The notes below the pieces were generated by a model, which saw nothing but the letters and a program-made list of their open reading frames with translations, did not search any database and had not been told where the DNA came from. Positions 1 to 12,844 of a stretch of 12,844 bases of DNA are shown here, in pieces. Every line of letters begins with the position of its first letter. The first letter of the stretch is position 1. The stretch spans positions 1 to 12,844 of the forward strand of contig JALTMR010000371.1 in NCBI GenBank assembly GCA_027001525.1, in the 5' to 3' direction. The stretch is from Gammaproteobacteria bacterium. GTDB taxonomy: Bacteria; Pseudomonadota; Gammaproteobacteria; Tenderiales; Tenderiaceae. A program made the translations under genes and the position numbers.

Positions 1-152
1 AGATTATGACGCTGTTCGAGCAGTTTAATCAGGTGGGTGTGACGGTGTTGATCGCCTCTCACGATCTGGAGCTGATCAGCCGGTTGAAAAAGCGCATCCT
101 GGTTCTGCGTGAAGGGCGGATGATGGCTGACCAGACTTTCGGGGGCCGCTGA
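1..152 (+). CDS. ftsE: FtsE, cell-division ABC transporter ATPase (3' end only)
   Basis: This is the last 49 codons of an ABC ATPase; the first complete codon is at position 3 and the TGA stop is 150-152. The visible part holds the ABC switch (H-loop) motif in IASHDLELI and the usual C-terminal strand LVLREGRM. FtsE is the cytoplasmic ATPase that works with FtsX to activate septal peptidoglycan hydrolases. Assignment to FtsE rather than another ABC ATPase rests on the next gene, which is clearly ftsX. The stop overlaps the ftsX ATG in TGATG, so the two are probably translationally coupled. The Walker motifs lie outside the window. Confidence 0.9.
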   Translation, partial: IMTLFEQFNQVGVTVLIASHDLELISRLKKRILVLREGRMMADQTFGGR

Positions 153-1162
153 TGCGTCAATCCCGTCCGCGACAGGAGTCGCACAAGGAGGCATCGCCTC
201 GGCGTGGGTCGGCCGCCCAGCGGGGGGAGTCCGGCGTATTGAGCCGCCTGCGTAACTATTTTGCCCTCCACTTTCAGGTCTCCACCACCAGCCTGGCCAA
301 GCTGGCAGCGACCCCTTTCTCCAGCTTCATGACGGCCGCTGTGATTGCTATCGCCCTGGCGCTGCCAGCGGTGCTGCATGTGTTTCTCGACAAGGTGCAG
401 TCGCTGAGCGGCAGCTGGCGTGACTCGGCGCAGATTTCGCTTTTCCTGAACGAAGGGCTGTCTGAGAAGGCGGCGGCCGATTTTGCCGCTGAGTTGGGCA
501 CCTGGGACGAGATTGCCAATGTTGTTCACATTCCCCCCGATACCGCACTGGAGGAGTTTGCGGCCAGCGCGGGCATGGGAGACGCTCTGGCGCTGCTGGA
601 TGAGAATCCGCTCCCTAATGTGATTGTGGTGACACCGACCATGGCGCACAAAGCCCCGGCTCAGGTGAAGGCCTTGACGGCGCGGCTGAAAGAGGAGCTG
701 CAGGTGGATATTGCCCAGCTGGACCTGGAGTGGCTGGAGCGTCTGTACGGTCTGCTGGAGTTGGCTGACCGGGTGGTGGTGGTATTGAGCAGCCTGCTGG
801 CCGCAGCGGTGCTGTTTGTTATCGGCAATACCATCCGTCTGGCGATTCAGAGCCGGCGGGATGAGATCGAGGTGACCAAGTTGATCGGCGGCAGTGACGC
901 CTTTGTGCGGCGGCCTTTTCTCTACAGCGGTTGTTGGTATGGTCTGATGGGGGCGCTCATGGCCTGGGGGCTGGTCAATCTACTGCTGGCGCTGCTGGAT
1001 GACCCGGTACAACACCTGGCAACACTCTACGGCAGCGAGTTCAGGGTGGGGCTGGTGGATATCCAAACCACCTTGCTGCTGCTGATCAGTGGGCCACTGC
1101 TGGGGTGGTTGGGGGCGTGGTCTGCCGCAGGACGGCACATCCGGGCCATTGAGCCGCGTTAG
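152..1162 (+). CDS. ftsX: FtsX, cell-division permease-like protein
   Basis: The product has 336 residues; E. coli FtsX has 352. It is an inner-membrane protein that partners FtsE and passes ATPase-driven changes to periplasmic activators of murein hydrolases at the septum. Visible layout: a basic cytoplasmic N-terminus (1-57), TM1 at about 58-79, a large extracytoplasmic domain (about 80-205), then TM2 at about 207-229, TM3 at about 257-281 and TM4 at about 304-326. The segment after TM2, with RRDEIEVTKLIGGSDAFVRRPF (238-256 region), is the typical FtsX cytoplasmic loop. The ATG is fixed by its 1-nt overlap with the ftsE stop. The ftsE-ftsX-rpoH order is typical of gammaproteobacteria. No intrinsic terminator is seen after the gene. 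Confidence 0.95.
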   Translation: MRQSRPRQESHKEASPRRGSAAQRGESGVLSRLRNYFALHFQVSTTSLAKLAATPFSSFMTAAVIAIALALPAVLHVFLDKVQSLSGSWRDSAQISLFLNEGLSEKAAADFAAELGTWDEIANVVHIPPDTALEEFAASAGMGDALALLDENPLPNVIVVTPTMAHKAPAQVKALTARLKEELQVDIAQLDLEWLERLYGLLELADRVVVVLSSLLAAAVLFVIGNTIRLAIQSRRDEIEVTKLIGGSDAFVRRPFLYSGCWYGLMGALMAWGLVNLLLALLDDPVQHLATLYGSEFRVGLVDIQTTLLLLISGPLLGWLGAWSAAGRHIRAIEPR

Positions 1163-1173
1163 CGGCAGCTTGA

Positions 1174-1203
1174 GGAACTTTCTTAAGCGTTCGCGCTCCT
1201 ATA
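1174..1203 (+). promoter_or_regulatory. Candidate sigma-E promoter of rpoH
   Basis: A perfect match to the sigma-E -35 consensus, GGAACTT, lies at 1174-1180. After a 16-nt spacer comes a -10-like TCCTATA at 1197-1203. E. coli rpoH has a sigma-E promoter (P3) with the same 16-nt arrangement, so envelope stress probably feeds into heat-shock sigma synthesis here too. TATAGT at 1200-1205 overlaps the -10 and also resembles a sigma-70 -10, but no good sigma-70 -35 lies at the right distance. The -10 match is imperfect, so this is a candidate. Confidence 0.6.
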
Positions 1204-1231
1204 GTCAGGATGCTAAAATAACAACAAAAAT

Positions 1232-1258
1232 GGGCCGGGAGCTTGCCAAGCGGGGCCC
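1232..1258 (+). other. Imperfect hairpin in the rpoH 5' leader
   Basis: An outer stem GGGCC (1232-1236) pairs with GGCCC (1254-1258), and an inner stem GCTT (1241-1244) pairs with AAGC (1248-1251), with a GCC loop and an asymmetric internal loop. No T-run follows, so it is not a terminator of ftsX. If transcription starts near 1208 it sits in the rpoH leader about 45 nt before the ATG. Any regulatory role is inference. Confidence 0.4.
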
Positions 1259-1303
1259 TAGCGTCTATGTCTGAAGAGCTAAATTTTATGGGGTACAGAG
1301 ATT

Positions 1304-2155
1304 ATGAGTAACAGTATGACTGTGGAGCTTGCGCTACCCACTGGTAGTCTGGAAGCCTACCAGGCGGCCGTTGCCCAGATACCGGTATTGAGTGCCGATG
1401 AGGAGCGTGAACTGGCAACACGGCTACGGGAAGATAACGACCTGGAAGCTGCTCGCAGGCTGGTGTTGTCCCATCTGCGTTTTGTTGCTTACATCGCTCG
1501 CGGTTACAAGGGCTACGGGTTGCCGGAAGCCGATCTGATTCAGGAAGGCAGTATTGGCCTGATGAAGGCGGTGAAGCGTTTTGATCCGACGATGAATGTA
1601 CGCCTCGCTTCCTTTGCTGTGCATTGGATTAAAGCGGAGATTCACGAGTATGTGCTGCGTAACTGGCGTATCGTCAAAGTGGCGACGACCAAGGCGCAGC
1701 GTAAGCTTTTCTTCAATCTGCGTAAAAATCGTGCCCGCCTGGGTTGGATGACGCAGGATGAGGTGAACACTCTGGCCGCCGACCTGGGGGTAACGCCCGA
1801 AAATGTGATGGAGATGGAGACACGCCTTAACGCGAACGATGCCGCTTTTGATCCGGCGGTCAGTGACCGGGATGATGACGCCTTTATCTCCCCGGCCGGG
1901 TATCTGGCGGACCAGCGCCCCGATCCTGCTGAGGCCCTGGAGGGCCAGCAGTGGCAGGCGCACAACGAGCAGCAGCTAAATGCTGCATTGTCTCAGCTCG
2001 ATGAGCGCAGCCTCGATATTCTGCAAAGCCGTTGGATGCAGGAGAAGAAGGCGACGTTGCATGAGCTGGCGGACAAGTACGGTGTTTCTGCCGAACGTAT
2101 CAGGCAGCTTGAGAACAACGCGATCAAAAAACTGAAGGTGTCGATGGCCGCGTGA
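1304..2155 (+). CDS. rpoH: RNA polymerase sigma factor RpoH (sigma-32)
   Basis: The product has 283 residues; E. coli RpoH has 284. It directs RNA polymerase to heat-shock promoters for chaperones and proteases. Region 2 is at about 48-125, with [18 protein letters not shown] and [19 protein letters not shown] nearly as in E. coli. The RpoH box, [10 protein letters not shown], is at 132-141, which separates it from other sigma-70 family members. Region 4 has the helix-turn-helix [20 protein letters not shown] at about 251-270. The ribosome binding site before ATG 1304 is weak. The leader carries a hairpin, and a candidate sigma-E promoter lies upstream. A strong terminator follows the stop. 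Confidence 0.97.
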
Positions 2156-2189
2156 ATAAACGCTGTTTCGGACGATGACGTACGTTGAG

Positions 2190-2212
2190 AACGGGCCTTT
2201 TGGCCCGTTTTT
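2190..2212 (+). terminator. Intrinsic terminator after rpoH
   Basis: An 8-bp perfect stem, AACGGGCC (2190-2197) with GGCCCGTT (2202-2209), closes a TTTT loop and runs into a T-rich tract (2208-2212, then GC and TTTT). It lies 34 nt after the rpoH stop. It argues against the next gene starting upstream of it. Confidence 0.93.
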
Positions 2213-2321
2213 GCTTTTCTGTATCTTGCTTTCGGGGGGGATTGCGCAGACTATTTCAGCCACACTCGAACGAATAGATACTGCTTTGGTCCAGACAGGA
2301 ACAGACAAGAGAGGAGGGGCT

Positions 2322-2969
2322 ATGGGGGGCTGTAGTGTTATCAGGCGGTGTCTGCTGGGTGGTCTGTTGTCTTTTTTCCTGGCCATACCGGCTGTTGCCG
2401 CCAGTATTTCAACGGAGTTGAAAGAGGGTGAGGGGCTGTTTGCCGAAGCGCTTCAGGGGGATAAGCGCGCACATCGAAAAGCACAAAAGAAATTTCGCGC
2501 GGCAGAACGCAAACACCCGGGGCATCCGCTGGTGAATGCCTATCTGGGGGCGTTGATTGCCCTGCAGGGCCGTGAGGCGCTCAGGCCCGAGGAAAAGAGA
2601 CGGCTGAATGACCAGGCCCTGGTTAAGCTGGATGCGGCGCTCGATGCCATCACCAAGCACAGAAATGATGTGGTCGTGGTGTTAAAGACGAAGCTGGTCA
2701 TTGCCCAGACTCAGGTTAATTTACCCCCGTTTTTCAATCGCTTGGTTGAAGGCAGAAAGCTGGTGGAGGAGCTGATGGCTGATGAGTTCTTCTCTGTCAT
2801 GCCGGCTCGTTTTCAGGCCGCAGCGTACGCAACCGCTGCCCGGTATGCGGAGAAACAGGGGCATGATGAGGACTACGAACGCTATCTTTCCCAAGTGATG
2901 GGTAGCGCACCGGCAAGTCAGGATGCCGAGCAGGCAAGGCGCCTGCTCAAGCGCCTGGGTGGGCTTTAA
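2322..2969 (+). CDS. Exported protein with TPR-like helical repeats, function unknown
   Basis: The product has 215 residues from ATG 2322. That start has a strong ribosome binding site (AGGAGG at 2312-2317) and begins a signal peptide: basic RR near residue 8, a hydrophobic core at 11-22, and probable cleavage after AVAA near 27. An earlier in-frame ATG at 2175 is rejected because it would place the rpoH terminator inside the gene. The mature part is charged and helical, with alternating Ala, Leu and Lys spacing like tetratricopeptide repeats (about 37-63, 67-83, 95-114 and 160-212). No catalytic motif is seen. It is probably a periplasmic scaffold or binding protein, but no family is recognised. 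It converges on bioD with 19 nt between the stops. Confidence 0.75.
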   Translation: MGGCSVIRRCLLGGLLSFFLAIPAVAASISTELKEGEGLFAEALQGDKRAHRKAQKKFRAAERKHPGHPLVNAYLGALIALQGREALRPEEKRRLNDQALVKLDAALDAITKHRNDVVVVLKTKLVIAQTQVNLPPFFNRLVEGRKLVEELMADEFFSVMPARFQAAAYATAARYAEKQGHDEDYERYLSQVMGSAPASQDAEQARRLLKRLGGL

Positions 2970-2988
2970 CTTTCGGTCTGGTGCAGCA

Positions 2989-3711
2989 TTAGAGTAGCCA
3001 GTCCGGCCGCTGGCTGTTTGCTTCCGGAGGGAGCGTCAGATGGTCTGCAATGGTGGCTGCATCGAGCGAGCCGAGGTGGGGTATCCTGCCCAGCAGGGGG
3101 GCGTCGAGACGCTGCTCCAGCGTCGCTATGTTCTCTTCCAGTCGGGGCATCTCCGGGGTGATCCGGTTGGCGACCCAGCCCGCCAGCGCCAGCCCCCTTG
3201 CCCGAATTGTTTCAGCGCTAAGCAGGGCGTGGTTAATGCAGCCAAGGCGCATCCCCACCACCAGAATGACGGGCAGCGTTAACCGCTGGGCCAGATCGGC
3301 CATGGTCTGAAAGTCGTTCAGGGGAACAAGCCAGCCGCCCGCACCTTCAACCACGACACAGTCACTTTTCCCGGCAATGGCCAGGTAGTGTTGATAGAGG
3401 GTTTCGATGTCGATGCGAAGCCCTGCTTCGTCTGCCGCAATGTGGGGGGCGATGGCGGGCTCAAGGGCGTAGGGATTAAGCGCATGGTAGCCCAGCTTGA
3501 GGGAAGCCTGTTGCTGTAGCAGCTCGGCATCTTCATTGCGCAGGCCTTCGGCGGTGGGGTGGCAGCCAGCGGCGACGGGTTTCATTACCCCTACTGACTT
3601 GCCCTGGCGTTTCAACTGCTCCACCAGCCCCAGGCTGACCCAGGTCTTGCCGACATCCGTGTCGGTACCCGTGACAAAAAAACCGCGCGGCACCTCGTGG
3701 TTTTGTCCCAT
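2989..3711 (-). CDS. bioD: Dethiobiotin synthetase BioD
   Basis: BioD closes the ureido ring of dethiobiotin from 7,8-diaminopelargonate, CO2 and ATP in the cytoplasm. The product is 240 residues from the ATG at 3711 (E. coli 225). An in-frame GTG one codon upstream is possible, but the ATG overlaps the upstream TGA as TGATG. Counting from the ATG, the P-loop GTDTDVGKT is at 15-23, the KPVAAG active-site segment at 44-49, VEGAGGW at 121-127 and VGMRLGCINHA at about 152-162. All of these match E. coli BioD closely. It is the last gene of the bio operon. No terminator was found in the short gap to the convergent gene. Confidence 0.96.
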   Translation of the reverse strand: MGQNHEVPRGFFVTGTDTDVGKTWVSLGLVEQLKRQGKSVGVMKPVAAGCHPTAEGLRNEDAELLQQQASLKLGYHALNPYALEPAIAPHIAADEAGLRIDIETLYQHYLAIAGKSDCVVVEGAGGWLVPLNDFQTMADLAQRLTLPVILVVGMRLGCINHALLSAETIRARGLALAGWVANRITPEMPRLEENIATLEQRLDAPLLGRIPHLGSLDAATIADHLTLPPEANSQRPDWLL

Positions 3712-4226
3712 CACTCTTCGAGCACTTTCAAGCCCGGGTTCGGGAATTTTTCGACGATGGCTTTACCCAGTTTGCCCTGGCTGGCCTGGTGCATGGAGTC
3801 GGATTCCATAATGATCAGCCCGAGCACGGTCACCATGATGGGAAGAATGCCCGCACCGCCGATAAAGGCCATCACTGCAATCTGCATCATGCCCAGGTAG
3901 GTGTAACCAACCCAACCCAGTGCAGACACGATCACCAGCAGCGATAACATGCCGATGAACACGCGTGCGCGCTTGGCGGCCATCTGCCAGTGACACTTCA
4001 CGAACCAGTCCTCATCGCCTTGCAGTGCTTTTTTTGCCCGCCACAGGATGTAAATCAAAATGCTGGCCGACATGATGGGCATGGCGATAATGGGGTGGGG
4101 TAGCGATTTGGCGATGCCCAGGGCGGCGACAAACCAGAGGATGTGGACGGCGACCAGATTGATCAGAAAAATTTCGTGCGGGATTTTTGCTCTTTTGCGC
4201 TGTTGCTCACTGACTTCAAACTGCAT
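3711..4226 (-). CDS. Four-helix inner-membrane protein in the bio operon, function unknown
   Basis: The product has 171 residues. It has four predicted membrane helices at about 19-39, 45-63, 88-110 and 114-140, a charged N-terminus (QQRKRAK) and a charged C-terminal tail, so both ends are probably cytoplasmic. A short polar loop with GDEDWFVKCHWQ lies between helices 2 and 3. No transporter or enzyme signature is recognised; in particular it does not look like BioY. A good ribosome binding site (GGAG, 7 nt before the ATG) supports the start. The stop overlaps the bioD start, so it is probably translated with bioD. The 116-nt gap behind bioC could hold its own promoter, but none is convincing. 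Confidence 0.85.
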   Translation of the reverse strand: MQFEVSEQQRKRAKIPHEIFLINLVAVHILWFVAALGIAKSLPHPIIAMPIMSASILIYILWRAKKALQGDEDWFVKCHWQMAAKRARVFIGMLSLLVIVSALGWVGYTYLGMMQIAVMAFIGGAGILPIMVTVLGLIIMESDSMHQASQGKLGKAIVEKFPNPGLKVLEE

Positions 4227-4301
4227 GATTAACTCCGAAGTTTTTTCCGCCGGTTCAGGGCGAAGAGGGGGGGTAAACTTCCAAAATATCCGCCAATATT
4301 A

Positions 4302-4322
4302 GCACCGATGCGGTGCCATCGG
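4302..4322 (-). other. Two overlapping, mutually exclusive hairpins after bioC
   Basis: In the gap between bioC and the membrane-protein gene, 4302-4307 can pair with 4311-4316 (GCACCG with CGGTGC, 3-nt loop). Alternatively, 4305-4310 can pair with 4317-4322 (CCGATG with CATCGG, 6-nt loop). On the - strand transcript neither is followed by a T-run, so a terminator call is not supported. A processing or stability role is possible but unproven. Confidence 0.35.
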
Positions 4323-4342
4323 CATGCTTCATATTGTCGCAC

Positions 4343-5230
4343 TCAGGTTCTTTTAAGCTGTGACAGCGGGATCTGTATCGTGCCATCGTCCATGTGCTGC
4401 TGCGTCTCCGAAGGCCTGCCCCAGGCGTGGCCGTAGATGACTTCGTAAGTCACGGGCAGGGTGTTGCCGGCATCACGAAATTGTTCGTAGGCCGCGAGCA
4501 TCTTTTTCAGCTTCGTTTTTCCGGTGAGGCCATGGTTGCGCCCCGAGGTGACGTTGTGAGCACCAATGCCCTTGAGTTCACGCATAAGCGTTTTGGCATC
4601 GCCATAGGTGAGGGTGATGTGCTCCGTATCCATGACCGGGTCGCAGACCCTGGCGCGCATCAGTGCATCCCCAATGTCGTGCATGTCGATGAAGGCGTTG
4701 ACGTGTACGGCGTTGTCTACCGCCGCCCAGGCCTGGCGCAGTTCGGTCAGGGTGTCGGGGCCAAAGGTGGTGAACATGAGCAGGCCGTCGGGGCGCAGGA
4801 CTCGGTGAAACTCAGTGAACGCGGCATCGAGATTCTGGCACCATTGCAGGGTGACGTTGGAGAAGATCATGTCGACGCTGTTGTCGGCAAGGGGCAATTG
4901 CTCGGCATCGCCGCAGAGAAAACGGCGCTTGCCAAAGCGGCGGCCCCAGGCAGAGAGTTTGCTGCGGGCCTGGTGGATCATGCCGGGGGCCAGGTCGAGG
5001 GAGACCACTTCGGCCTGCCTGTAACGCTGGCTCAGGCGTTCGCTCCAGGTGCCTGTGCCGCAGCCTACGTCGAGGATGCGGCGGGGTTCGAGTTTGATGA
5101 GGTCGAGGCGCTCCAGAAGGCGGTTGCCGATCTCTTTTTGCAGCACGGCGAGTTCGTCGTAATCAGGTGCTGCCTTGCTGAATGCCTCGCGTACCCGGCG
5201 TTTGTCGAGGTTATATCGGTCGGAATCCAT
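4343..5230 (-). CDS. bioC: Malonyl-ACP O-methyltransferase BioC
   Basis: BioC methylates the free carboxyl of malonyl-ACP with S-adenosylmethionine, which lets the fatty-acid enzymes extend it to pimeloyl-ACP methyl ester. The product has 295 residues. The class I methyltransferase glycine motif LDVGCGTGTW is at 53-62, an acidic residue after strand 2 at D79, and GDAEQLPLADNSVDMIFSN at about 107-125. BioC-type features are FGPDTLTELRQAW (156-168) and YGHAWGRP (266-273). It is longer than E. coli BioC, mainly at the C-terminus. The ATG overlaps the bioH stop as TAATG. Confidence 0.95.
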   Translation of the reverse strand: MDSDRYNLDKRRVREAFSKAAPDYDELAVLQKEIGNRLLERLDLIKLEPRRILDVGCGTGTWSERLSQRYRQAEVVSLDLAPGMIHQARSKLSAWGRRFGKRRFLCGDAEQLPLADNSVDMIFSNVTLQWCQNLDAAFTEFHRVLRPDGLLMFTTFGPDTLTELRQAWAAVDNAVHVNAFIDMHDIGDALMRARVCDPVMDTEHITLTYGDAKTLMRELKGIGAHNVTSGRNHGLTGKTKLKKMLAAYEQFRDAGNTLPVTYEVIYGHAWGRPSETQQHMDDGTIQIPLSQLKRT

Positions 5231-5997
5231 TATTGTTGGCTCAGTGAAAATTCAAGTTCACTCAAAAATATCTCGAGATGAGAAAGAAAAGGGGCGTGCC
5301 CTGCGCCGGCAATGGTGCGGCAGCGGGCCTGGGGCAGCAGCGTATGCATCGCCCTGGCCGCCTTGATCGGCACCAGCATGTCGCGCTCGCCAAAAAAGAG
5401 GTGGCAGGGGCAGTTGAGTTGATTCAGTTGGGGACGCAGGTTGCTGGTACGCAAAATTTCCAGCCCCAGCCGCAAGGCCTCCGGCGCAGGCTGGGGGCGG
5501 CTGGCCACTTGTTGCTGGATCAGGCGCAGGAGTTCGCGTTCATTCTCCGTGCCGCGCACTTGCAGGGCGAGAAAGCGTTTCAGCGTGGCGGGGTAGTTCT
5601 CCTGCAGGTGGTCGGCAAAGCCGCTCAGCGTGCCGCGCGGCATGGCATCGGGCCAGTCGTCACCGCGGACAAACTGAGGCAGACTGGCGACGGTAACCAG
5701 CGTGTTGACCGCTTGAGGCTGCTGGATAGCCGCCTGCATGGCGACCATGCCTCCCAGCGACCAGCCGACCCAGGTGGCCGGCTGCGGTACGTCGTCCATC
5801 ACCATCCGGGCGAGCCGGGGCAGGTCAAAGCCGCCCGCCGGCATGGGGCTGTTGCCGTGGCCGGGCAGGTCAACGCGGGTGACGCGATAGCGCTGAGCCA
5901 ATCGCTCCGCCACTGCGGCCCAGATGCCGCCGTGCATTCCCCAGCCGTGGATCAGCACGATGTCTGCCCCCTGCCCCTGCTGCTCCTGATAGATCAT
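5230..5997 (-). CDS. bioH: Pimeloyl-ACP methyl ester carboxylesterase BioH
   Basis: BioH removes the methyl group that BioC added, releasing pimeloyl-ACP for BioF. The product has 255 residues (E. coli 256) and an alpha/beta-hydrolase fold. The oxyanion segment [10 protein letters not shown] is at 17-26. The nucleophile elbow GWSLGG puts the serine at S80, and the acid D206 (in GERDMLVP) and base H234 (in GAGHAPF) complete the triad. The spacing matches the S82-D207-H235 triad of E. coli BioH. The DLPGHGNS and [13 protein letters not shown] segments are also typical. It overlaps bioF by 4 nt (ATGA) and bioC by 1 nt. Confidence 0.95.
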
Positions 5998-7142
5998 GCC
6001 ACTGCCTCCAGTGCATTCAGTAGTTGGTCGATCTGCTGCTCGGTGTGGTTAGCAGAGAAGGTGATGCGCAGTCGCGCGGTGCCGTCAGGTACGGTAGGCG
6101 GGCGAATGGCTCCGATCAGAATGTCTTGCTGCAACAGGGCTTCGCTCATGGCAACCGCTTTGGCGCTGTTGCCGATCAGCAAAGGCTGGATGGGGGTGGT
6201 GGAGTCCATCAGCGTCAGCCCCAGCTGGGTGGCACCCTGTCGAAACCGTTTGATGAGTGTCTGAAGTTTCTGCCGTCGCCACTCTTCGGCCTGGAGCAGC
6301 TTCAGGCTGGTGCGGGTGGCCTCGGCTACGGCGGGAGGCAGGGCGGTGGTGTAGATGTAGGTGCGGGCGTGCTGGATCAGGTACTCAATTAACGTCTCGC
6401 TGCCTGCGACAAAGGCACCGAAGGTGCCAAAGGCCTTGCCCAAGGTTCCCATGAGGATGGGGCACTGGTCATGGTCCAGGCCATAGTGATCCAGCGTACC
6501 ACGCCCCTGTCGGCCCAATACGCCAAGGCCGTGGGCATCGTCCACCATCAGCCAGGCGTCGTGTTGGCTGGCGCATTGAGCCAGTTGGGGCAGGGCTGCA
6601 AGGTCACCATCCATGCTGAAAACCGCGTCGCTGACCACCAGCCTGGTGTCGCTCGTAGACGCCGCCAGCCTGGTGGCCAGGGCGGTGACGCTGTTGTGGG
6701 CATAGCGTTGCATACGGGCCTGGCAGAGGCGGGCCGCGTCGAGTAGCGACGCATGGTTGAGGCGGTCTTCGAAGAGAGAGTCGCCTCGTTTGCATAGTGC
6801 GGCGATGGTGCCCAGGTTAGCCATGTAGCCGGTGGAAAAAAGCAGTGTCCGTGGCCGTCCGAGAAAGTCGGCCAGCTCCTCCTCCAGTGCATGGTGGGCG
6901 CTGCTGTGGCCACTCACCAGGTGGGAGGCGCCACTGCCCACGCCCCAGCGGCTGGCCCCCTGTTGCATGGCGGCGACTACCGCCGGGTGGTTGGCCAGGC
7001 CCAGGTAGTCGTTGCTGCAGAAGGCGAGGTGCTCCTGGCCGTTGATCAGGGCGCGGGTGCCCGTGGTGCTATCGAGCGTGCGGCGGTGGCGATAGAGGTT
7101 TTCGCGCTGTCGCCGGGCCAGTTCGGTGGAGAGGTTGAGCAT
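5994..7142 (-). CDS. bioF: 8-amino-7-oxononanoate synthase BioF
   Basis: BioF is a PLP enzyme that condenses pimeloyl-ACP with L-alanine to give 8-amino-7-oxononanoate. From the ATG at 7142 the product has 382 residues (E. coli 384). The lysine in GTLGKAFG is then K236, the same number as the E. coli PLP lysine, which supports this start. Other family segments are [12 protein letters not shown] (about 42-53), [12 protein letters not shown] (about 69-80), the PLP aspartate segment MVDDAHGLG and the C-terminal [17 protein letters not shown] 27 nt further upstream is also in frame but lies inside a hairpin. Oddly, the ATG has no Shine-Dalgarno sequence: a run of nine C residues lies 4 nt before it. 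Confidence 0.95.
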
Positions 7143-7146
7143 AGTC

Positions 7147-7155
7147 GGGGGGGGG
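7147..7155. repeat. G9/C9 homopolymer just upstream of the bioF start
   Basis: Nine consecutive G on the + strand (nine C in the bioF message) end 4 nt before the bioF ATG, where a Shine-Dalgarno sequence would be expected. Tracts this long are prone to slippage in replication and to sequencing error. Confidence 0.8.
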
Positions 7156-7158
7156 CAG

Positions 7159-7194
7159 GCCCATCGCACCGGCCAGGCTGCCGGTTCGATGGGC
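7159..7194 (-). other. Long hairpin between bioB and bioF
   Basis: GCCCATCG (7159-7166) pairs with CGATGGGC (7187-7194), and ACCGGC (7168-7173) with GCCGGT (7180-7185). This makes a 14-bp stem broken by one 1x1 mismatch, with a 6-nt loop (7174-7179). On the bio message it lies 20 nt after the bioB stop and is followed by a C-tract, not a T-run. It is therefore more likely a stability, processing or translation-control element than a terminator. Confidence 0.65.
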
Positions 7195-7214
7195 TGGCTG
7201 TGTGAATGAATGGG

Positions 7215-8243
7215 CTAGGCGCTGGCTGCCGCCTGTTGGCGTCGCTGCTGGGTATCGCCACGGATGTCCAGCTTCAGGTCCTGAATCATCTTGATGTCGT
7301 CATCAACGCTGCGGCCCTGTGTTGTGAGGTAGTTGCCGATCATGACGCCGGAAGCGCCCGCCATGAAGATCATCGACTGCATATCCCCCAGGAACTGTCG
7401 GCCACCGGCGATGCGAATTTCGGCCGCAGGCATGAGGTAGCGATAGGTGGCGATGGTGCGCAGAATCTCGTAGGGCTTCATCGGCTCAATGTGGGCCATG
7501 GGGGTGCCAAGCACCGGGCTGAGAAAATTCATCGGTACCGATTCGACGCCGAGCTGGCGCAGTGTGTCCGCCAGTTCGATGCGCTGGTCGAGGGATTCGC
7601 CCATGCCCAGGATGCCGCCGGCACAGACCCGCAGCCCCGCTTCGCGGGCGTTGTTAATGGTGTCGATGTTCTCCTGAAAGGTGTGGCTGGTGCAGACATT
7701 GTCGAAAAAGCTCTCGGCGCATTCGAGGTTATGGTGGTAGTTCTCCAGGCCGTTTTCCTTGAGCAGCCTGGCGCTCTCTTTATCCAGCGCGCCAAGGCTG
7801 GCGCAACGACCAATGTCGGTGTCTTTGTCCAGGGTGGAAAAATAGGTTTTCAGCTGATCGGCCTCTTTGTCAGAGCGCACCCCCCAGCCCTTGGAGACGA
7901 TGCCGAAATCGCTGGCCCCCCATTCGCGGGCCTGGCGGGCCTGCGCCAGCAGTTGGTCGGAGGAGATGTAGTCGTAAGCCGGTGCATCGGTTTGATGGTG
8001 TCCGCTTTGAGAGCAAAAAGAGCAGTTCTCCGAGCAGTTGCCCGAGCGCACGTTGGCGATGGCGCAGACCTCAATCTCATTACCTCGATTGGCCTTGCGA
8101 ATGCGGTCGGCACCGGCCATGAGCCAGGGTGTGTAGTCGTCCTCAAGGCCGATCATCCAGCGTCCTTCGGCGGCGCTCATCTCACCACCGCCGAGAATGC
8201 GTTGGGTGATTTCGTCAATGCGGGTATAAATAGTGTTATCCAT
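7215..8243 (-). CDS. bioB: Biotin synthase BioB, atypical cysteine set
   Basis: BioB is a radical-SAM enzyme that inserts sulfur into dethiobiotin. From ATG 8243 the product has 342 residues (E. coli 346). An upstream in-frame TTG (8309) is rejected because it falls on the promoter -35. The radical-SAM cluster motif CxxxCxxC is C70-C74-C77. E. coli uses C97, C128, C188 and an arginine for its auxiliary 2Fe-2S cluster. Here the counterparts of C128 and C188 are present (C147 in GRCASLG, C207 in RVCAGG), but the C97 position, 37 residues after the third SAM cysteine in both proteins, is glycine (G114 in FGIVSKGWG). Two extra cysteines appear at C175 and C184, in NLECAESFFDNVCTSHT. The sequence looks closer to Gram-positive or anaerobe BioB than to that of E. 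coli. It is the first gene of the operon. Confidence 0.95.
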   Translation of the reverse strand: MDNTIYTRIDEITQRILGGGEMSAAEGRWMIGLEDDYTPWLMAGADRIRKANRGNEIEVCAIANVRSGNCSENCSFCSQSGHHQTDAPAYDYISSDQLLAQARQAREWGASDFGIVSKGWGVRSDKEADQLKTYFSTLDKDTDIGRCASLGALDKESARLLKENGLENYHHNLECAESFFDNVCTSHTFQENIDTINNAREAGLRVCAGGILGMGESLDQRIELADTLRQLGVESVPMNFLSPVLGTPMAHIEPMKPYEILRTIATYRYLMPAAEIRIAGGRQFLGDMQSMIFMAGASGVMIGNYLTTQGRSVDDDIKMIQDLKLDIRGDTQQRRQQAAASA

Positions 8244-8281
8244 AGTGTTCTCACAGTGCTGGGCTTTTTCTGATGGGGCGA

Positions 8282-8309
8282 ATATTAACCCCGGAGGGGA
8301 AGCTGTCAA
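8282..8309 (-). promoter_or_regulatory. Probable sigma-70 promoter of the bio operon
   Basis: On the - strand a perfect -35 TTGACA (8309-8304) and a -10 TAATAT (8287-8282, 4 of 6) are separated by 16 nt. The ATG of bioB lies about 39 nt downstream of the -10. The spacer contains an inverted repeat, CCCC-TCC-GGGG, at about 8289-8299. No sequence close to the usual BirA operator was recognised. The comF promoter must overlap or lie close by. Confidence 0.65.
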
Positions 8310-8325
8310 CCCAAGGATGGGGGTG

Positions 8326-9030
8326 ATGGTGGATAAGTGGTTAATAAATGCTCAAGCCTGGTGGCTGCCACCGCGTTGCCAGTTGTGCGGTGCGAGGGGT
8401 GATGACGGGCAGGATATCTGCCGCCCATGTCGGCTAGAGCTGCCCTGGCGGGGGCCTGGGTGCTGGCGCTGTGGGGAGGTGCTGACGGAGGAGGGGTGTT
8501 GTGGTCGCTGCCAGCACGACCCCCCTGCTTTTGAGCAGAGCTACGCCGTGTTCGATTACGCTGAGCCCGTTGGGCATCTCATTCATGAGCTGAAGTTCAA
8601 CGCCAGGCTGCATGTGGCCCGTCTGTTGGGGGAGTTGATGGCGCAAGATCTGGCGGCGCGGGTGGTTGAGCTGCCTGATCTGCTGATCCCCGTACCGCTC
8701 CACGCCCGGCGAATCCGCCAGCGCGGTTTTAATCAGAGTGTCGAGCTGGGTCGTTTTGTGGCCCGGGGGCTGGGTGTGGCGATGTTGCGCGACGGTTGTC
8801 GGCGGCTTCGGGCAACAGCGCCTCAAGTGGGCAAAAGTGCGCAGGCGCGGCGACGTAATCTGGTGGCGGCGTTTGACGTGAGCGCCGATGTGGCGGGCCA
8901 GCGTGTGGCGCTGCTGGATGATGTAATGACGACGGGCAGTACTGCCGATCTGTTGGCTCAGACTTTGAAGCGGGCCGGGGCCCGTCATGTGCAGGTATGG
9001 GTCTGTGCCAGGGCGGCTCGCCGAGTGTAG
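8326..9030 (+). CDS. comF: ComF family phosphoribosyltransferase-like protein
   Basis: The product has 234 residues from ATG 8326, chosen because AAGGA (8313-8317) lies 8 nt upstream; ATG 8317 is an alternative three codons earlier. An N-terminal zinc-ribbon-like part has CQLC (18-21), CRPC (32-35) and a further Cys cluster (46-62). A phosphoribosyltransferase fold follows, with IPVPLHARRIRQRGFNQS (about 121-138) and the PRPP-binding LDDVMTTGST (197-206). The family includes ComF, needed for DNA uptake in transformable bacteria, and E. coli GntX. Whether this organism is competent cannot be told. It diverges from bioB, a linkage also found in pseudomonads. Confidence 0.9.
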   Translation: MVDKWLINAQAWWLPPRCQLCGARGDDGQDICRPCRLELPWRGPGCWRCGEVLTEEGCCGRCQHDPPAFEQSYAVFDYAEPVGHLIHELKFNARLHVARLLGELMAQDLAARVVELPDLLIPVPLHARRIRQRGFNQSVELGRFVARGLGVAMLRDGCRRLRATAPQVGKSAQARRRNLVAAFDVSADVAGQRVALLDDVMTTGSTADLLAQTLKRAGARHVQVWVCARAARRV

Positions 9031-9141
9031 CCTTCGGCGAAAATTTAGGCCGTGATAATATAGCGCCACGGATCTTGCCGGGTGCTTTGTGCGCGAGCGG
9101 CATCAGTCTCTTTTTTAGCTCAACGGATACGGGTTATCTTC

Positions 9142-9717
9142 ATGAAATTTCGAATTTTATTGGTTCCTGCTTTATTAGGCTGCGCGAGCCTGGCGGCGTC
9201 TGCTGATGAGGTTGAGGTCAACCTCAGCAACGATACGGCCTACCTGCAATATGCTTCGCCGATGGAGTATAACGGCTACGGGCGTACCGATCTGGAGGTC
9301 GGTGCACTCTACACTGAGACAGACGACTTGCTGGGCTCCATCGGCATCGCCATGTTGGGTGAGGTGGGCAGCGACGTGCCAGGGCTGAGTTTTGGTCTGG
9401 CCATCAAGGCCTATGCCGTGAAGCTCGATGTGGCGGATGCGACGCTGGGGGCCATCACGCTGGGGGGCAAGGCGCGCTACTCCCCGCCCAGTGCCGATCG
9501 GTTTGCCGTGTTGGGTTATGTGAACTACGCGCCAACCATTACCACCTTCGGGGATTCGGAAAACCTTATGGAAGTGGGGGCGCGTGCCGAATATGAAGTA
9601 TTGCCCGGCGCAGCGATTTACATCGGATATCGTGAAATTACCACCGACCTGGAAAATGGTGGGCCAGAGGTCAAACTGGATGACCAGGGACATGTTGGCC
9701 TGCGCATAAGCTTCTAA
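9142..9717 (+). CDS. YfaZ family outer-membrane protein
   Basis: The product has 191 residues from ATG 9142, which starts a signal peptide: MKFR, a hydrophobic core, and probable cleavage after AASA near residue 22. The mature part is a series of alternating amphipathic strands, for example ITLGGKARYSPP, FAVLGYVNYAP and AIYIGYREI. It ends in phenylalanine, the usual last residue of outer-membrane beta-barrels. Length and pattern fit the YfaZ family, whose function is not established. An LLGC sequence at residues 11-14 could be read as a lipobox, but it lies very near the N-terminus. No clear promoter was found in the 111 nt after comF. Confidence 0.7.
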   Translation: MKFRILLVPALLGCASLAASADEVEVNLSNDTAYLQYASPMEYNGYGRTDLEVGALYTETDDLLGSIGIAMLGEVGSDVPGLSFGLAIKAYAVKLDVADATLGAITLGGKARYSPPSADRFAVLGYVNYAPTITTFGDSENLMEVGARAEYEVLPGAAIYIGYREITTDLENGGPEVKLDDQGHVGLRISF

Positions 9718-9741
9718 CTGTAGGTAGCCTCTGCTGGCGTC

Positions 9742-10116
9742 ATGGAGATCTCCAACTCACATCTTGCCGCTTATGGTGCGGAGGCCACTGCACCGCGGCC
9801 AGGTGCCAGCTTCTCTCGTGGCAGTGACGCACCGCCTTCTGCGCCAGGAGGGCCTGCGTCAGGGGCGGACGAGTATCGCCGCCGGCCGCCGGTGGAACAG
9901 GTGCTTGAGGGGGAGCTGCTCAACGATCGCCGCCAACAGGCGCGTGCCAATGCGGATGAGCAGCGCCAGGCCCGGCAGCGCTATCAGGAACAGATGCAAC
10001 AGATTAAATCGGCCTCGCCGCAGGCTGCCCGGGCGCTGGAGGCTTATCTCTCCACCGCCGGCGTTGCTGCGGCGGGCTTTTCTGACTACTCACCTCGACT
10101 GGATGTCTACGCCTAA
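9742..10116 (+). CDS. Small hydrophilic protein, function unknown
   Basis: The product has 124 residues. The first 45 are rich in Ala, Pro, Gly and Ser and probably disordered. Residues 50-90 are charged and rich in Gln and Arg (LLNDRRQQARAN, QRQARQRYQEQMQQ), which suggests a coiled coil. A conserved-looking end reads ALEAYLSTA then RLDVYA. There is no signal peptide or membrane segment. No family is recognised with certainty. It starts 24 nt after the yfaZ-like gene with a poor ribosome binding site. Its TAA overlaps the next ATG (TAATG), so it is probably co-translated with the HugZ-like gene. Codon use fits the neighbours, which supports a real gene. Confidence 0.65.
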   Translation: MEISNSHLAAYGAEATAPRPGASFSRGSDAPPSAPGGPASGADEYRRRPPVEQVLEGELLNDRRQQARANADEQRQARQRYQEQMQQIKSASPQAARALEAYLSTAGVAAAGFSDYSPRLDVYA

Positions 10117-10613
10117 TGGAACCCAAAGCCTCCGCAATGAAACCGGCAGGCGATGGCCGCCTGGCCCGTTTGATCCATGCTATCCGCTGGGCAGCGATGG
10201 CGACGGTGGATGAGTCTGACCCCTATGTCTCCTGGGTGGCTTATGCGCCCGAGGAGGATTTTTCCTGCTTCTATCTTCATCTCTCCCGTTTGGCCAAACA
10301 CACTCGCAACCTGTTGGATAATGGTAAGATTTCCCTGGCGATCAGTGAGCCGGATAGCGGCGAAGGGGATCCGCAGCAGCTGGCCAGGTTGATTTTGCAG
10401 GGGCACATCGAGGTGGTGGCCGACGACAGTGATGGCTACGATGCGGCGAAGATGCACTATCTCAAACGTTTCCCGGACGCGGCCATGTTATTCGATTTTG
10501 CCGATTTCTCACTTTTTCGCTTTGTCGTTGAGACGGGGCGCTACGTCGAAGGTTTTGCCAGCAGCCACAAGGTCAGCCCGGCGAGGCTGCAGCGTGTTTC
10601 CTCGCTCGCTTAA
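10116..10613 (+). CDS. HugZ/pyridoxamine-phosphate-oxidase-like FMN split-barrel protein
   Basis: The product has 165 residues with a split-barrel fold. MATVDESDPYVSWVAYAPE (28-46) forms the first strands, and LHLSRLAKHTRNLLDNGKIS (54-73) is the segment that in HugZ/HutZ heme-utilisation proteins binds the cofactor. The C-terminal part, MLFDFADFSLFRFVVETGRYVEGF (124-147), also follows this family. Members bind FMN or heme, and some degrade heme; the substrate here is unknown. It is shorter than V. cholerae HutZ and lacks much of its C-terminal extension. The ATG overlaps the upstream stop. Its own stop overlaps that of the convergent 49-codon gene. Confidence 0.8.
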   Translation: MEPKASAMKPAGDGRLARLIHAIRWAAMATVDESDPYVSWVAYAPEEDFSCFYLHLSRLAKHTRNLLDNGKISLAISEPDSGEGDPQQLARLILQGHIEVVADDSDGYDAAKMHYLKRFPDAAMLFDFADFSLFRFVVETGRYVEGFASSHKVSPARLQRVSSLA

Positions 10614-10759
10614 TCGAGTCGCTGGGTCAGCCAGGGCGTTAGCAGCAGCGCAACCATGAGGCCGATGAGCAGATCCTGGTACTCCGCCAGTGCATCAATG
10701 TTGGCGCTGCCATGAATGGCGGCAAACATGATGCCGATCATTGTGATGGTTTTTAGCAT
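10610..10759 (-). CDS. 49-residue predicted membrane protein
   Basis: A short reading frame on the - strand starts at ATG 10759 and stops at TAA 10612-10610. A perfect AGGAGG (10765-10770 on the + strand as CCTCCT) lies 5 nt before the ATG, the best ribosome binding site in the window. The protein begins MLKTITMIGIMFAAIHG, has a polar centre (NIDALAEYQD, 20-29), and a second hydrophobic stretch LLIGLMVALLLTPWL (30-44). This suggests two short membrane helices or one helix plus a signal-like anchor. No family is recognised. It fills an otherwise empty gap and converges on the HugZ-like gene with overlapping stops. No firm promoter was found upstream. Confidence 0.6.
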   Translation of the reverse strand: MLKTITMIGIMFAAIHGSANIDALAEYQDLLIGLMVALLLTPWLTQRLD

Positions 10760-10764
10760 CTCTT

Positions 10765-10770
10765 CCTCCT
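10765..10770 (-). promoter_or_regulatory. Ribosome binding site of the 49-codon gene
   Basis: AGGAGG on the - strand, 5 nt before ATG 10759, matches the anti-Shine-Dalgarno sequence fully. It is the main evidence that this short frame is translated. Confidence 0.7.
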
Positions 10771-10890
10771 CGCCTGTTTTGTCTGGAGAGGCTTTTATGG
10801 TGACAGCTTGGTAGAAAAACTCTCGTTCCGGTGTCGCAAGGGGTCGGTGAGCTTCGTCACGTTACTGGTTATCTTTTTTTCGAGGAAATT

Positions 10891-11862
10891 ATGGCGTCGA
10901 TGATCCATGTTGCTGTGGCGGTGGTGGTTAACCGGGGTGGCGAAGTGTTGTTGGCGTTACGGCCGCAGGATAAGCATCAAGGCGGTCTGTGGGAGTTTCC
11001 CGGGGGCAAGGTGGAGGCGGACGAGACGGTGGTTGAGGCGCTCAAGCGCGAGCTGCTGGAAGAGGTGGGCATCGATGCCACGCAGTTTCGTCCCCTGATC
11101 CGTGTTCGTCATCACTACGGTGATCGGTCGGTGTTGCTGGACGTTTGGCGCGTGGACGATTTCGAGGGTGATGCTCACGGCTGTGAAGGGCAGGCGGTGG
11201 AGTGGGTGGCGCCGGACGCTCTGAATGAGCGCCAGTTTCCGGCGGCCAATCTGGCTATCGTCAGTGCGGTGCAGTTGCCGGATCGTTACCTCATTACACC
11301 GGAGCCGGATGATACCCGCCAGTTTATGCAACAGTTGGAGTGTTCGCTAAACGCCGGCGTGAGTCTGGTTCAGCTGCGGGCCAGGTCATTGGACGATGAG
11401 GCCTATAGTGCGTTGGCCAGGCACGTTTTGAGCCGCTGTCGTCGCTATGGGGCGAGAGTATTGCTCAATGCCGAGCCCTCTGTGGCTGAGCGGCTGGGGG
11501 CGGATGGCGTGCATCTGAGCAGCACGCGCCTGATGGCGCTGAGCCAACGGCCTCTCCCGGCCTCCTTTCTGGTGGCTGCCTCCTGCCATAACGGGCAGGA
11601 GCTGGCCCAGGCTGAAAAGATAGGCGCTGATTTTGCCGTGCTCAGCCCGGTGGCCGCTACTGCCAGCCATCCCGGTGCCCGTCCCTTGGGGTGGCCCGAG
11701 TTGCAGCATCTGCTGGATGGTGCTGCCATACCTGTCTTTGCCCTGGGCGGCCTGGGGCCTTCTGACCTGGGGGTGGCTTTTCACCACGGTGCCCAAGGGG
11801 TCGCGGCGATCCGAGCGCTTTGGGGAGGCGATTTGACGCGTTGGCGGGTGGAGCCGGGTTAG
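10891..11862 (+). CDS. MutT-type Nudix hydrolase fused to a ThiE-like domain
   Basis: The product has 323 residues from ATG 10891, which has GAGGAA at 10882-10887; an upstream GTG (10831) has no such support. Residues 1-130 are a MutT domain with a complete Nudix box at 39-61 (G39, E45, then R53-E54 and E57-E58-x-G60). MutT removes 8-oxo-dGTP from the nucleotide pool, and the WEFPGGK segment is MutT-like. Residues 131-320 resemble thiamine-phosphate synthase (ThiE/TenI). The ThiE active site looks degraded: QLRARS has Arg where ThiE has Lys, LLNAE lacks the Asp after Asn, GVHLSSTRL lacks the usual GQ-D, and TASHPGA has His in place of Lys. The ThiE part is probably not a working synthase. This fusion is known in gammaproteobacteria. 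Confidence 0.9.
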
Positions 11863-12062
11863 TAGTGGCCCTGATCTTTGTCCTGGAGCTGGAGTGCTTC
11901 GGGAGGTAGCTCTTCGCCGGGAATACGATGGTTTTCGCTGACCCACTCACCGAGGTCGATCAGCTTGCAGCGTTCACTGCAAAAGGGGCGGTATGTTGAT
12001 GCGGCGCTCCACTCCACGGCTGTTTCGCAGGTGGGGCAGTTAACTGTCGTTGGTGTGTTCAT
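11859..12062 (-). CDS. yacG: DNA gyrase inhibitor YacG (zinc-binding)
   Basis: The product has 67 residues. The zinc ribbon is C9-x2-C12 and C28-x3-C32, within CPTC and [14 protein letters not shown]; the latter is the YacG signature. In E. coli YacG binds GyrB and blocks gyrase from DNA. The acidic C-terminal tail ([17 protein letters not shown]) is also usual. The ATG overlaps the zapD stop as ATGA, so the two form an operon. The TAA overlaps the stop of the convergent mutT-like gene. Confidence 0.95.
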
Positions 12063-12811
12063 AGGATGCAGCAGGTCAGGATAAAGTCGATATCGTCGCT
12101 TGCCTGGGTGGGGCGTTCGCTCAGGCTGTGCTTCATAAAGCGGATGTTGAAACGGTGTTTGCTGCCACTGACTTCGGGGAAGTAGGGTGAGTTCTCCGGC
12201 AGGGCAACACGAATGAGTTGACAGCTGTGGCTGGGGTCCAGGGTGCGTTGAAAAAAACCGCCGCTGGCGATCTCCTCCGTCGGTTCGCCGCTGTCGCGAA
12301 TCAGGCGCAGCAGCAAAATGACGGCTTGGCGGATGGGATCGAAAGGTTCCAGCCAGGCCTGAATATCAAGGATCCGTTTCTCCTCCGGTTGCGATAGCCA
12401 GTAGTGAAAGGCAGGCAGGTCAAAATCGCAACAGCCGCCGGCGATGGTGCTGCGCTGTTTGATGCTGGTGAGAAAATCGTTATCGCGAAATTCCAGTGTC
12501 TGGGTTTGCAATGTATAGAGCCGGTCGATCAGGGCATCCATTTCCGCCAGTATTTCATTGAGGCGGCTGCTGTCGACCTGCGGGTTCTCTGCCAGGCGGT
12601 CGAGAAAGCTGGCCTGGCGTTCCAGCTCTTTCATGATCTCGGTTTTGATATCCGAACGGGTAAAAACACTCATCAGGTCAAACAGGGCCCGCAGTGCAGC
12701 CCGGCTGTCCCAGGTGGAGTGGCGGAACGTGTGGGCGCGAGCCTGCTCGAAGAGAAACTCCATGCGCAGCAGGGAGCGGGCTCTTTCGTTAAGTGGCTGT
12801 TCGTAGATCAT
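12059..12811 (-). CDS. zapD: Cell-division protein ZapD (FtsZ cross-linker)
   Basis: The product has 250 residues (E. coli 247). ZapD is a cytoplasmic protein that cross-links FtsZ filaments and helps Z-ring assembly. Visible matches to E. coli include [21 protein letters not shown] (3-22), the helical segment [31 protein letters not shown] (about 119-138), and near the C-terminus [12 protein letters not shown] and DFILTCC. The ribosome binding site before ATG 12811 is not strong, which fits translational coupling to an upstream gene. It is followed by yacG with a 4-nt overlap. Confidence 0.95.
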
Positions 12812-12844
12812 CGGATTACGAAGGGCTGTGTGCTGTCCGTGGGG
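12808..12844 (-). CDS. Possible 3' end of coaE (11 codons visible)
   Basis: On the - strand one frame is open from the window edge to a TGA at 12810-12808 that overlaps the zapD ATG as ATGA. This is the same junction as zapD-yacG. In many gammaproteobacteria coaE (dephospho-CoA kinase) precedes zapD. Eleven codons are too few to identify a protein, and another frame ends at a TAA about 11 nt earlier, so this call rests on context alone. Confidence 0.25.
   Translation of the reverse strand, partial: PTDSTQPFVIR

Follow-up and report, generated by a model that had tools for sequence, protein, structure and literature searches.

Biotin synthase (BioB) is a long-standing puzzle, the well-studied form of the enzyme destroying part of itself at each turnover. 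In this form, Type I, exemplified by E. coli BioB, C97, C128, C188 and R260 hold a sacrificial [2Fe-2S] cluster, and Type II BioB is reported to hold instead an auxiliary [4Fe-5S] cluster with an extra sulfide, its hosts being described as strict anaerobes. Here, we ask which of the two is encoded by the bioB gene of a gammaproteobacterium of the family Tenderiaceae (assembly GCA_027001525.1, contig JALTMR010000371.1, positions 1 to 12,844; this whole stretch of 12,844 nucleotides is the window), and how that gene came to stand in its biotin operon. We consider, with a probability of about 0.86, that the window protein is a Type II BioB whose gene was swapped, alone and in place, within a bioBFHC-D operon.

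The bioB gene of the window encodes a Type II biotin synthase

The bioB gene lies on the reverse strand; reading 7215..8243 on the forward strand gives an unrelated frame. The protein contains both the radical S-adenosylmethionine (SAM) motif Cx3Cx2C and a BATS domain, scores 366.1 bits against the BioB equivalog model TIGR00433 (cut-off 225) in the profile search, and falls far under the cut-offs of the PylB, HmdB, LipS2 and CofH models. It is the sole match above the BioB cut-off in its own genome, an assembly of 583 contigs with 88.3% completeness, and this, with its place in a bio operon, predicts a biotin synthase converting dethiobiotin to biotin. The gene and its relevant positions are:

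7215..8243, reverse strand: bioB, Type II biotin synthase, 342 amino acids, ATG at 8243 (translation; TIGR00433; Radical_SAM and BATS Pfam domains)
8064..8066, reverse strand: Cys60, where E. coli has Ser43; invariant in the clade and also a cysteine in the two Type II structures (alignment)
8013..8036, reverse strand: radical-SAM motif Cys70-x3-Cys74-x2-Cys77 (translation, alignment)
7902..7904, reverse strand: Gly114, aligned with E. coli Cys97 and Gly throughout the clade (alignment)
7803..7805, reverse strand: Cys147, counterpart of E. coli Cys128 (alignment)
7719..7721, reverse strand: Cys175, at the E. coli Thr156 site, Cys in 61/121, probably no cluster ligand (alignment)
7692..7694, reverse strand: Cys184 (NVCTSHT), at the E. 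coli Ile165 site, common to both Type II structures (alignment)
7623..7625, reverse strand: Cys207, counterpart of E. coli Cys188 (alignment)
7398..7400, reverse strand: Arg282, counterpart of the E. coli cluster ligand Arg260 (alignment)

The protein has eight cysteines (60, 70, 74, 77, 147, 175, 184 and 207). A first-pass annotation of this DNA had placed G114 at the site of E. coli C97 and taken C147 and C207 for the counterparts of C128 and C188, and alignment confirms all three. G114 lies 37 residues after C77, the third SAM cysteine, exactly as C97 lies 37 residues after C60 in E. coli; the two residues share one column in one alignment, a second alignment having a one-residue gap there. 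To assess conservation, we used the window protein together with the best 120 of 3138 homologues. C60, G114, C147, C184, C207 and R282 are each invariant in 121/121, so the cysteine changes are not due to chance, and the C97 site, a cysteine in Type I, is Gly throughout. Over 84 distinct locus sequences, C60, G114, C147, C184 and C207 are likewise found in 84/84, and R282 in 82 with a gap in 2. The annotation had also listed C175 and C184 as extra cysteines: both do occupy E. coli Thr and Ile sites and C184 is invariant, but position 175 varies (C 61, S 32, T 27, A 1), which leaves the proposed location of C175 in the cluster site unsupported, and the list, though right in its letters, overlooked Cys60. 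Whether C97 and C184 change together was also tested, but the rows sampled gave too few independent pairs, and L206 among them had been scored wrongly as bearing a Cys at the C97 site.

The closest solved structures among the PDB matches are the BioB of Veillonella parvula (8vdw) and of Blautia obeum (8vcw). Both have Cys at sites 60, 147, 184 and 207 and lack C97, and the window BioB has the same set. Its identity is 45% to 8vdw, 35-36% to 8vcw and about 29-30% to E. coli BioB (1r30); among the rows listed, it is 31-40% to Type I relatives and at most 46% to non-proteobacterial ones. V. parvula BioB differs from the gammaproteobacterial proteins in having Ser, not Gly, at the C97 site, and B. 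obeum BioB is more distant, standing with Eubacterium eligens in another branch. With E. coli BioB, the window protein has in common the fold, the SAM motif, the counterparts of C128, C188 and R260 and the place in a bio operon; however, C97, Ser43 and Ile165 of E. coli are Gly, Cys and Cys in the gammaproteobacterial clade, and the two fall in separate clades. A further group, Nitrospirota BioB with five cysteines (L141-L144, L147 and others), has Cys at the 60, 147, 184 and 207 sites and 41-46% identity to the window protein, but also keeps the Cys at the C97 site, thus combining Type I and Type II cysteines.

We then placed these proteins in a tree of 87 rows, the long rows L173 (Haladaptatus), L174 (Streptomyces) and L196 (Staphylococcus) having been left out beforehand. 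The 19 gammaproteobacterial Type II rows form one clade (support 100/100), and those of proteobacterial Type I, 15 in number and including one from Azospirillum, form a separate one (100/100), the branch between the two having a length of 2.03. The approximately unbiased (AU) test rejects a topology in which the Type II clade and Type I are kept together on the same side of a branch (p-AU 0.013). The gammaproteobacterial clade and the V. parvula and B. obeum enzymes belong to a group supported at 98/95, which includes the five-cysteine Nitrospirota. Overall, the conserved cysteines, the closest solved structures and the tree show that the class is Type II. The anaerobe-type class that the first-pass annotation had guessed is thereby borne out, and the alignment and tree that it had suggested as a check set the clade apart from proteobacterial Type I.

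Type II BioB is spread over gammaproteobacterial families

Of 276 gammaproteobacterial genomes, 240 have a BioB match and 32 of these carry Type II, in 13 family codes, the window's own genome being counted; the carriers are mostly uncultured. The separation is wide: Type II genomes score at least 487 bits, and the next best of the 240 scores 207. A single BioB match is found in 31 of the 32, genome G164 having a second. Of the 11 genomes from the window's own family, 10 gave a BioB match, in every case of Type II (one in two pieces), and Ca. Tenderia electrophaga is among the carriers. The view of this enzyme as an unusual one for a gammaproteobacterial operon therefore holds as to Type II within a bio operon, but not as a one-genome oddity. 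No Type II BioB in a gammaproteobacterium was reported in the literature found, a search covering titles and the starts of abstracts with most subscription papers outside it. As far as that search shows, what is new is that gammaproteobacterial bioB was exchanged in place; the enzyme itself adds a branch to a kind already known.

Evidence for an exchange of bioB alone

The operon reads bioB-bioF-bioH-bioC-(a 171-amino-acid protein)-bioD, preceded by a divergent comF-like gene and with rpoH and ftsX beyond. The genes used for comparison are:

8323..9030, forward strand: comF/gntX-like gene, divergent neighbour marking the slot, start codon unsettled (synteny; GntX 159.5 of 304 bits and ComF 118.3 of 233.55 bits, both under cut-off)
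5994..7169, reverse strand: bioF, the next gene of the operon (TIGR00858, 507.9 bits, cut-off 426.45)
5230..5997, reverse strand: bioH (TIGR01738, 258 bits, cut-off 206.95)
4343..5230, reverse strand: bioC (TIGR02072, 264.7 bits, cut-off 184.95)
2989..3714, reverse strand: bioD (TIGR00347, 182.4 bits, cut-off 83.3)

The two types fill the same slot, bioB being immediately preceded by comF and followed by bioF in 61 of 70 Type II loci, which may include a few duplicates between collections (L070/L195), and in 21 of 31 Type I loci, hand-picked from match lists. The median identity of BioB is 31% between types and 71% within Type II, the highest value between types (36%) lying below the lowest within Type II (62%). 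For the neighbours, the medians between types and within Type II are 54 and 59% (BioF), 36 and 40% (BioH), 46 and 53% (BioC), 43 and 46% (BioD), and 41 and 46% (ComF). Because the neighbours show no such gap between types and BioB does, we consider that bioB alone was exchanged; and because both types occupy the slot between comF and bioF and only BioB differs sharply, that one gene of the operon was replaced in place. The transfer envisaged by the first-pass annotation is thus supported at the level of the gene, BioB alone departing from the operon's usual similarity.

The later history was approached through rpoB, found in 25 of 30 chosen genomes, and through the neighbour genes. The rpoB tree, whose bootstrap had not settled, rejects a single Type II clade (p-AU 0.0043); without genome G062 such a clade is not rejected (p-AU 0.075), so the rejection is partly due to this genome. 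G062 groups with the Type II genome G184 (98/99) in the rpoB tree. It has comF and bioFHCD together with a slot that lacks bioB (206 bases between open frames; loci L216 and L176), and its Type I bioB is on another contig with no other operon gene beside it. Quick trees of the neighbour genes interleave the types, the Type I locus L226 joining the window's group at 96-97. These genes gave a higher likelihood with Type II held as one clade, which the AU test, made after three long rows were dropped, did not reject (p-AU 0.56); for these two reasons we do not claim many independent exchanges. A single entry of Type II into the slot, followed by at least one reversion to Type I, fits the data, though there may have been more events.

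Proposed mechanism and probable exposure to oxygen

By family membership, Cys70, Cys74 and Cys77 would hold the [4Fe-4S] cluster that cleaves SAM, and deoxyadenosyl radicals would remove hydrogen from C9 and then from C6 of dethiobiotin. The sulfur source would be an auxiliary cluster on Cys147, Cys184 and Cys207, to which Arg282, and perhaps Cys60, would lie close. Homology and the identity of the cysteine set with that of the Type II structures make a sulfide-donating [4Fe-5S] cluster likely; if its extra sulfide is the one handed over, the cluster core could survive, unlike the [2Fe-2S] cluster of Type I. Cys60 is a candidate ligand because every one of the 72 non-Type-I rows in the 87-row tree has a cysteine there and because Cys60, Cys184 and Cys207 stay in proteins where site 147 is Asp.

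The hosts are not obviously anaerobes. All 18 Type II genomes examined have above-cut-off matches to PF00115, the haem-copper oxidase family, to which nitric oxide reductases also belong; in the window's own genome, one such protein scores 231.8 bits against the model of cbb3 subunit I (ccoN), under the cut-off of 583.15. V. parvula is an anaerobe, in contrast to the oxidase-family genes of the gammaproteobacterial hosts examined, and since those hosts carry such genes, their cells are probably exposed to oxygen while the enzyme is at work. Ca. Tenderia electrophaga is described from aerobic biocathodes, with several terminal-oxidase homologues (PMC5371394), and an aerobic biocathode community is also described in PMC5743799. 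As this organism belongs to the window's own family, "anaerobe-type", the term of the first-pass annotation, is a label for the enzyme and not for its host: it was right for the enzyme class. We give about even odds to a fuller account, in which Type II works in oxygen-respiring Gammaproteobacteria, replaced Type I gene for gene in the slot, and was later lost from the slot in one sampled family with Type I kept elsewhere.

Alternative explanations

That the protein is a normal Type I BioB whose cysteines changed by chance is scarcely credible: C147, C207, R282 and the SAM motif are indeed common to E. coli BioB, but identity is low to Type I, 1r30 included, when set against 8vdw, 8vcw and the non-proteobacterial relatives, and the tree, the AU test and the extra cysteines, invariant in 121/121, oppose it. 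An explanation by vertical ancestry, in which an early gammaproteobacterium had both types of bioB, lineages lost one or the other and nothing was imported into the slot, has more to commend it, given the spread of Type II over 13 sampled families and an rpoB tree that without G062 admits a single Type II lineage. However, two coexisting copies could not have shared the one operon slot that both types occupy, the identity gap is confined to BioB, and 31 of 32 Type II genomes have a single match (G164 having a second); we regard this explanation as unlikely. Slightly less probable still is a Type II enzyme by descent that adapted to oxygen, its swapped cysteines holding an auxiliary cluster of lesser size or another kind, [2Fe-2S] or plain [4Fe-4S]. 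The aerobic biocathode origin of Ca. Tenderia (PMC5371394, PMC5743799), the PF00115 genes of all 18 genomes and the Gly, rather than Ser or Ala, at the C97 site would suit it; against it, the cysteine set is identical to that of 8vdw and 8vcw, and Gly at the C97 site with Cys147 and Cys184 is also found in other proteins (L096, L197-L205).

Several observations weigh against a Type II BioB swapped in place. No solved structure (among the PDB matches), spectroscopy or activity was found for any member of the clade, and the putative auxiliary ligand set rests on alignment. In the tree, the clade groups with other C97-less BioBs only at 81/73, and its nearest outside relatives, from the phylum of isolate AUK210, are joined at 84/30, for which reason we name no donor. 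The non-proteobacterial side of the tree also has C97-bearing rows, from cyanobacteria and Nitrospirota, and an earlier quick tree puts C97-bearing Streptomyces and Staphylococcus rows there too; the side of the tree alone is therefore no definition of Type II. Finally, the neighbour genes do not reject a single Type II clade, and the exchanges may number one or more.

Type I and Type II enzymes in one slot of related genomes provide matched pairs for testing the cluster types for oxygen tolerance and turnover number and, if a Type II BioB was swapped in place, would amount to a natural experiment on the choice between a sulfide-donating [4Fe-5S] and a self-sacrificing [2Fe-2S] enzyme. The five-cysteine Nitrospirota forms would be a candidate step between the types, and the clade may be a source of Type II enzymes that lend themselves better to making biotin under aerobic conditions.

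Other cysteine sets and genes of the window

Nitrospirota BioB was read in the best-scoring 30 of 58 matched genomes. All five cysteines (sites 60, 97, 147, 184 and 207), and with them those of Type I and Type II together, are carried by 19 of the 30 loci (L141-L144, L146-L149, L151-L153, L157, L158, L160, L161, L163-L165 and L167), which are possible intermediates between the types. Inside stops reported for several Nitrospirota matches raised selenocysteine as a candidate, which was rejected, all of these stops being at the protein's end.

In BioB of Verrucomicrobia, Poribacteria and some Nitrospirota (L097-L100, L102, L155, L168), Asp takes the E. coli Cys128 site and Gly the C97 site, while sites 60, 184 and 207 are Cys, which is another ligand set. 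Cyanobacterial and some Nitrospirota proteins (L103-L110, L145, L150, L154, L159, L162, L166, L169) keep the Cys at the C97 site and lack Cys184, with Cys60 as in Type II; L103, recorded as Gracilibacteria, groups with the cyanobacteria. In BioB of the haloarchaeon Haladaptatus (L173), the C97, C128 and C184 sites are Gly, Asp and Val, which leaves Cys at only two of the five auxiliary positions, 60 and 207. Two places in genome G369 (AUK210 phylum), one of them L197, match BioB strongly, at 307 and 305 bits.

In the window itself, the 171-amino-acid predicted protein between bioC and bioD (3711-4226, reverse strand) matched no NCBIfam model and had no tblastn match in the fetched loci (E up to 1) and none in plasmids. 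Farther along, 10834-11859 on the forward strand encodes a ThiE-like domain fused to a MutT-type Nudix domain, matched above cut-off by PRK08999.
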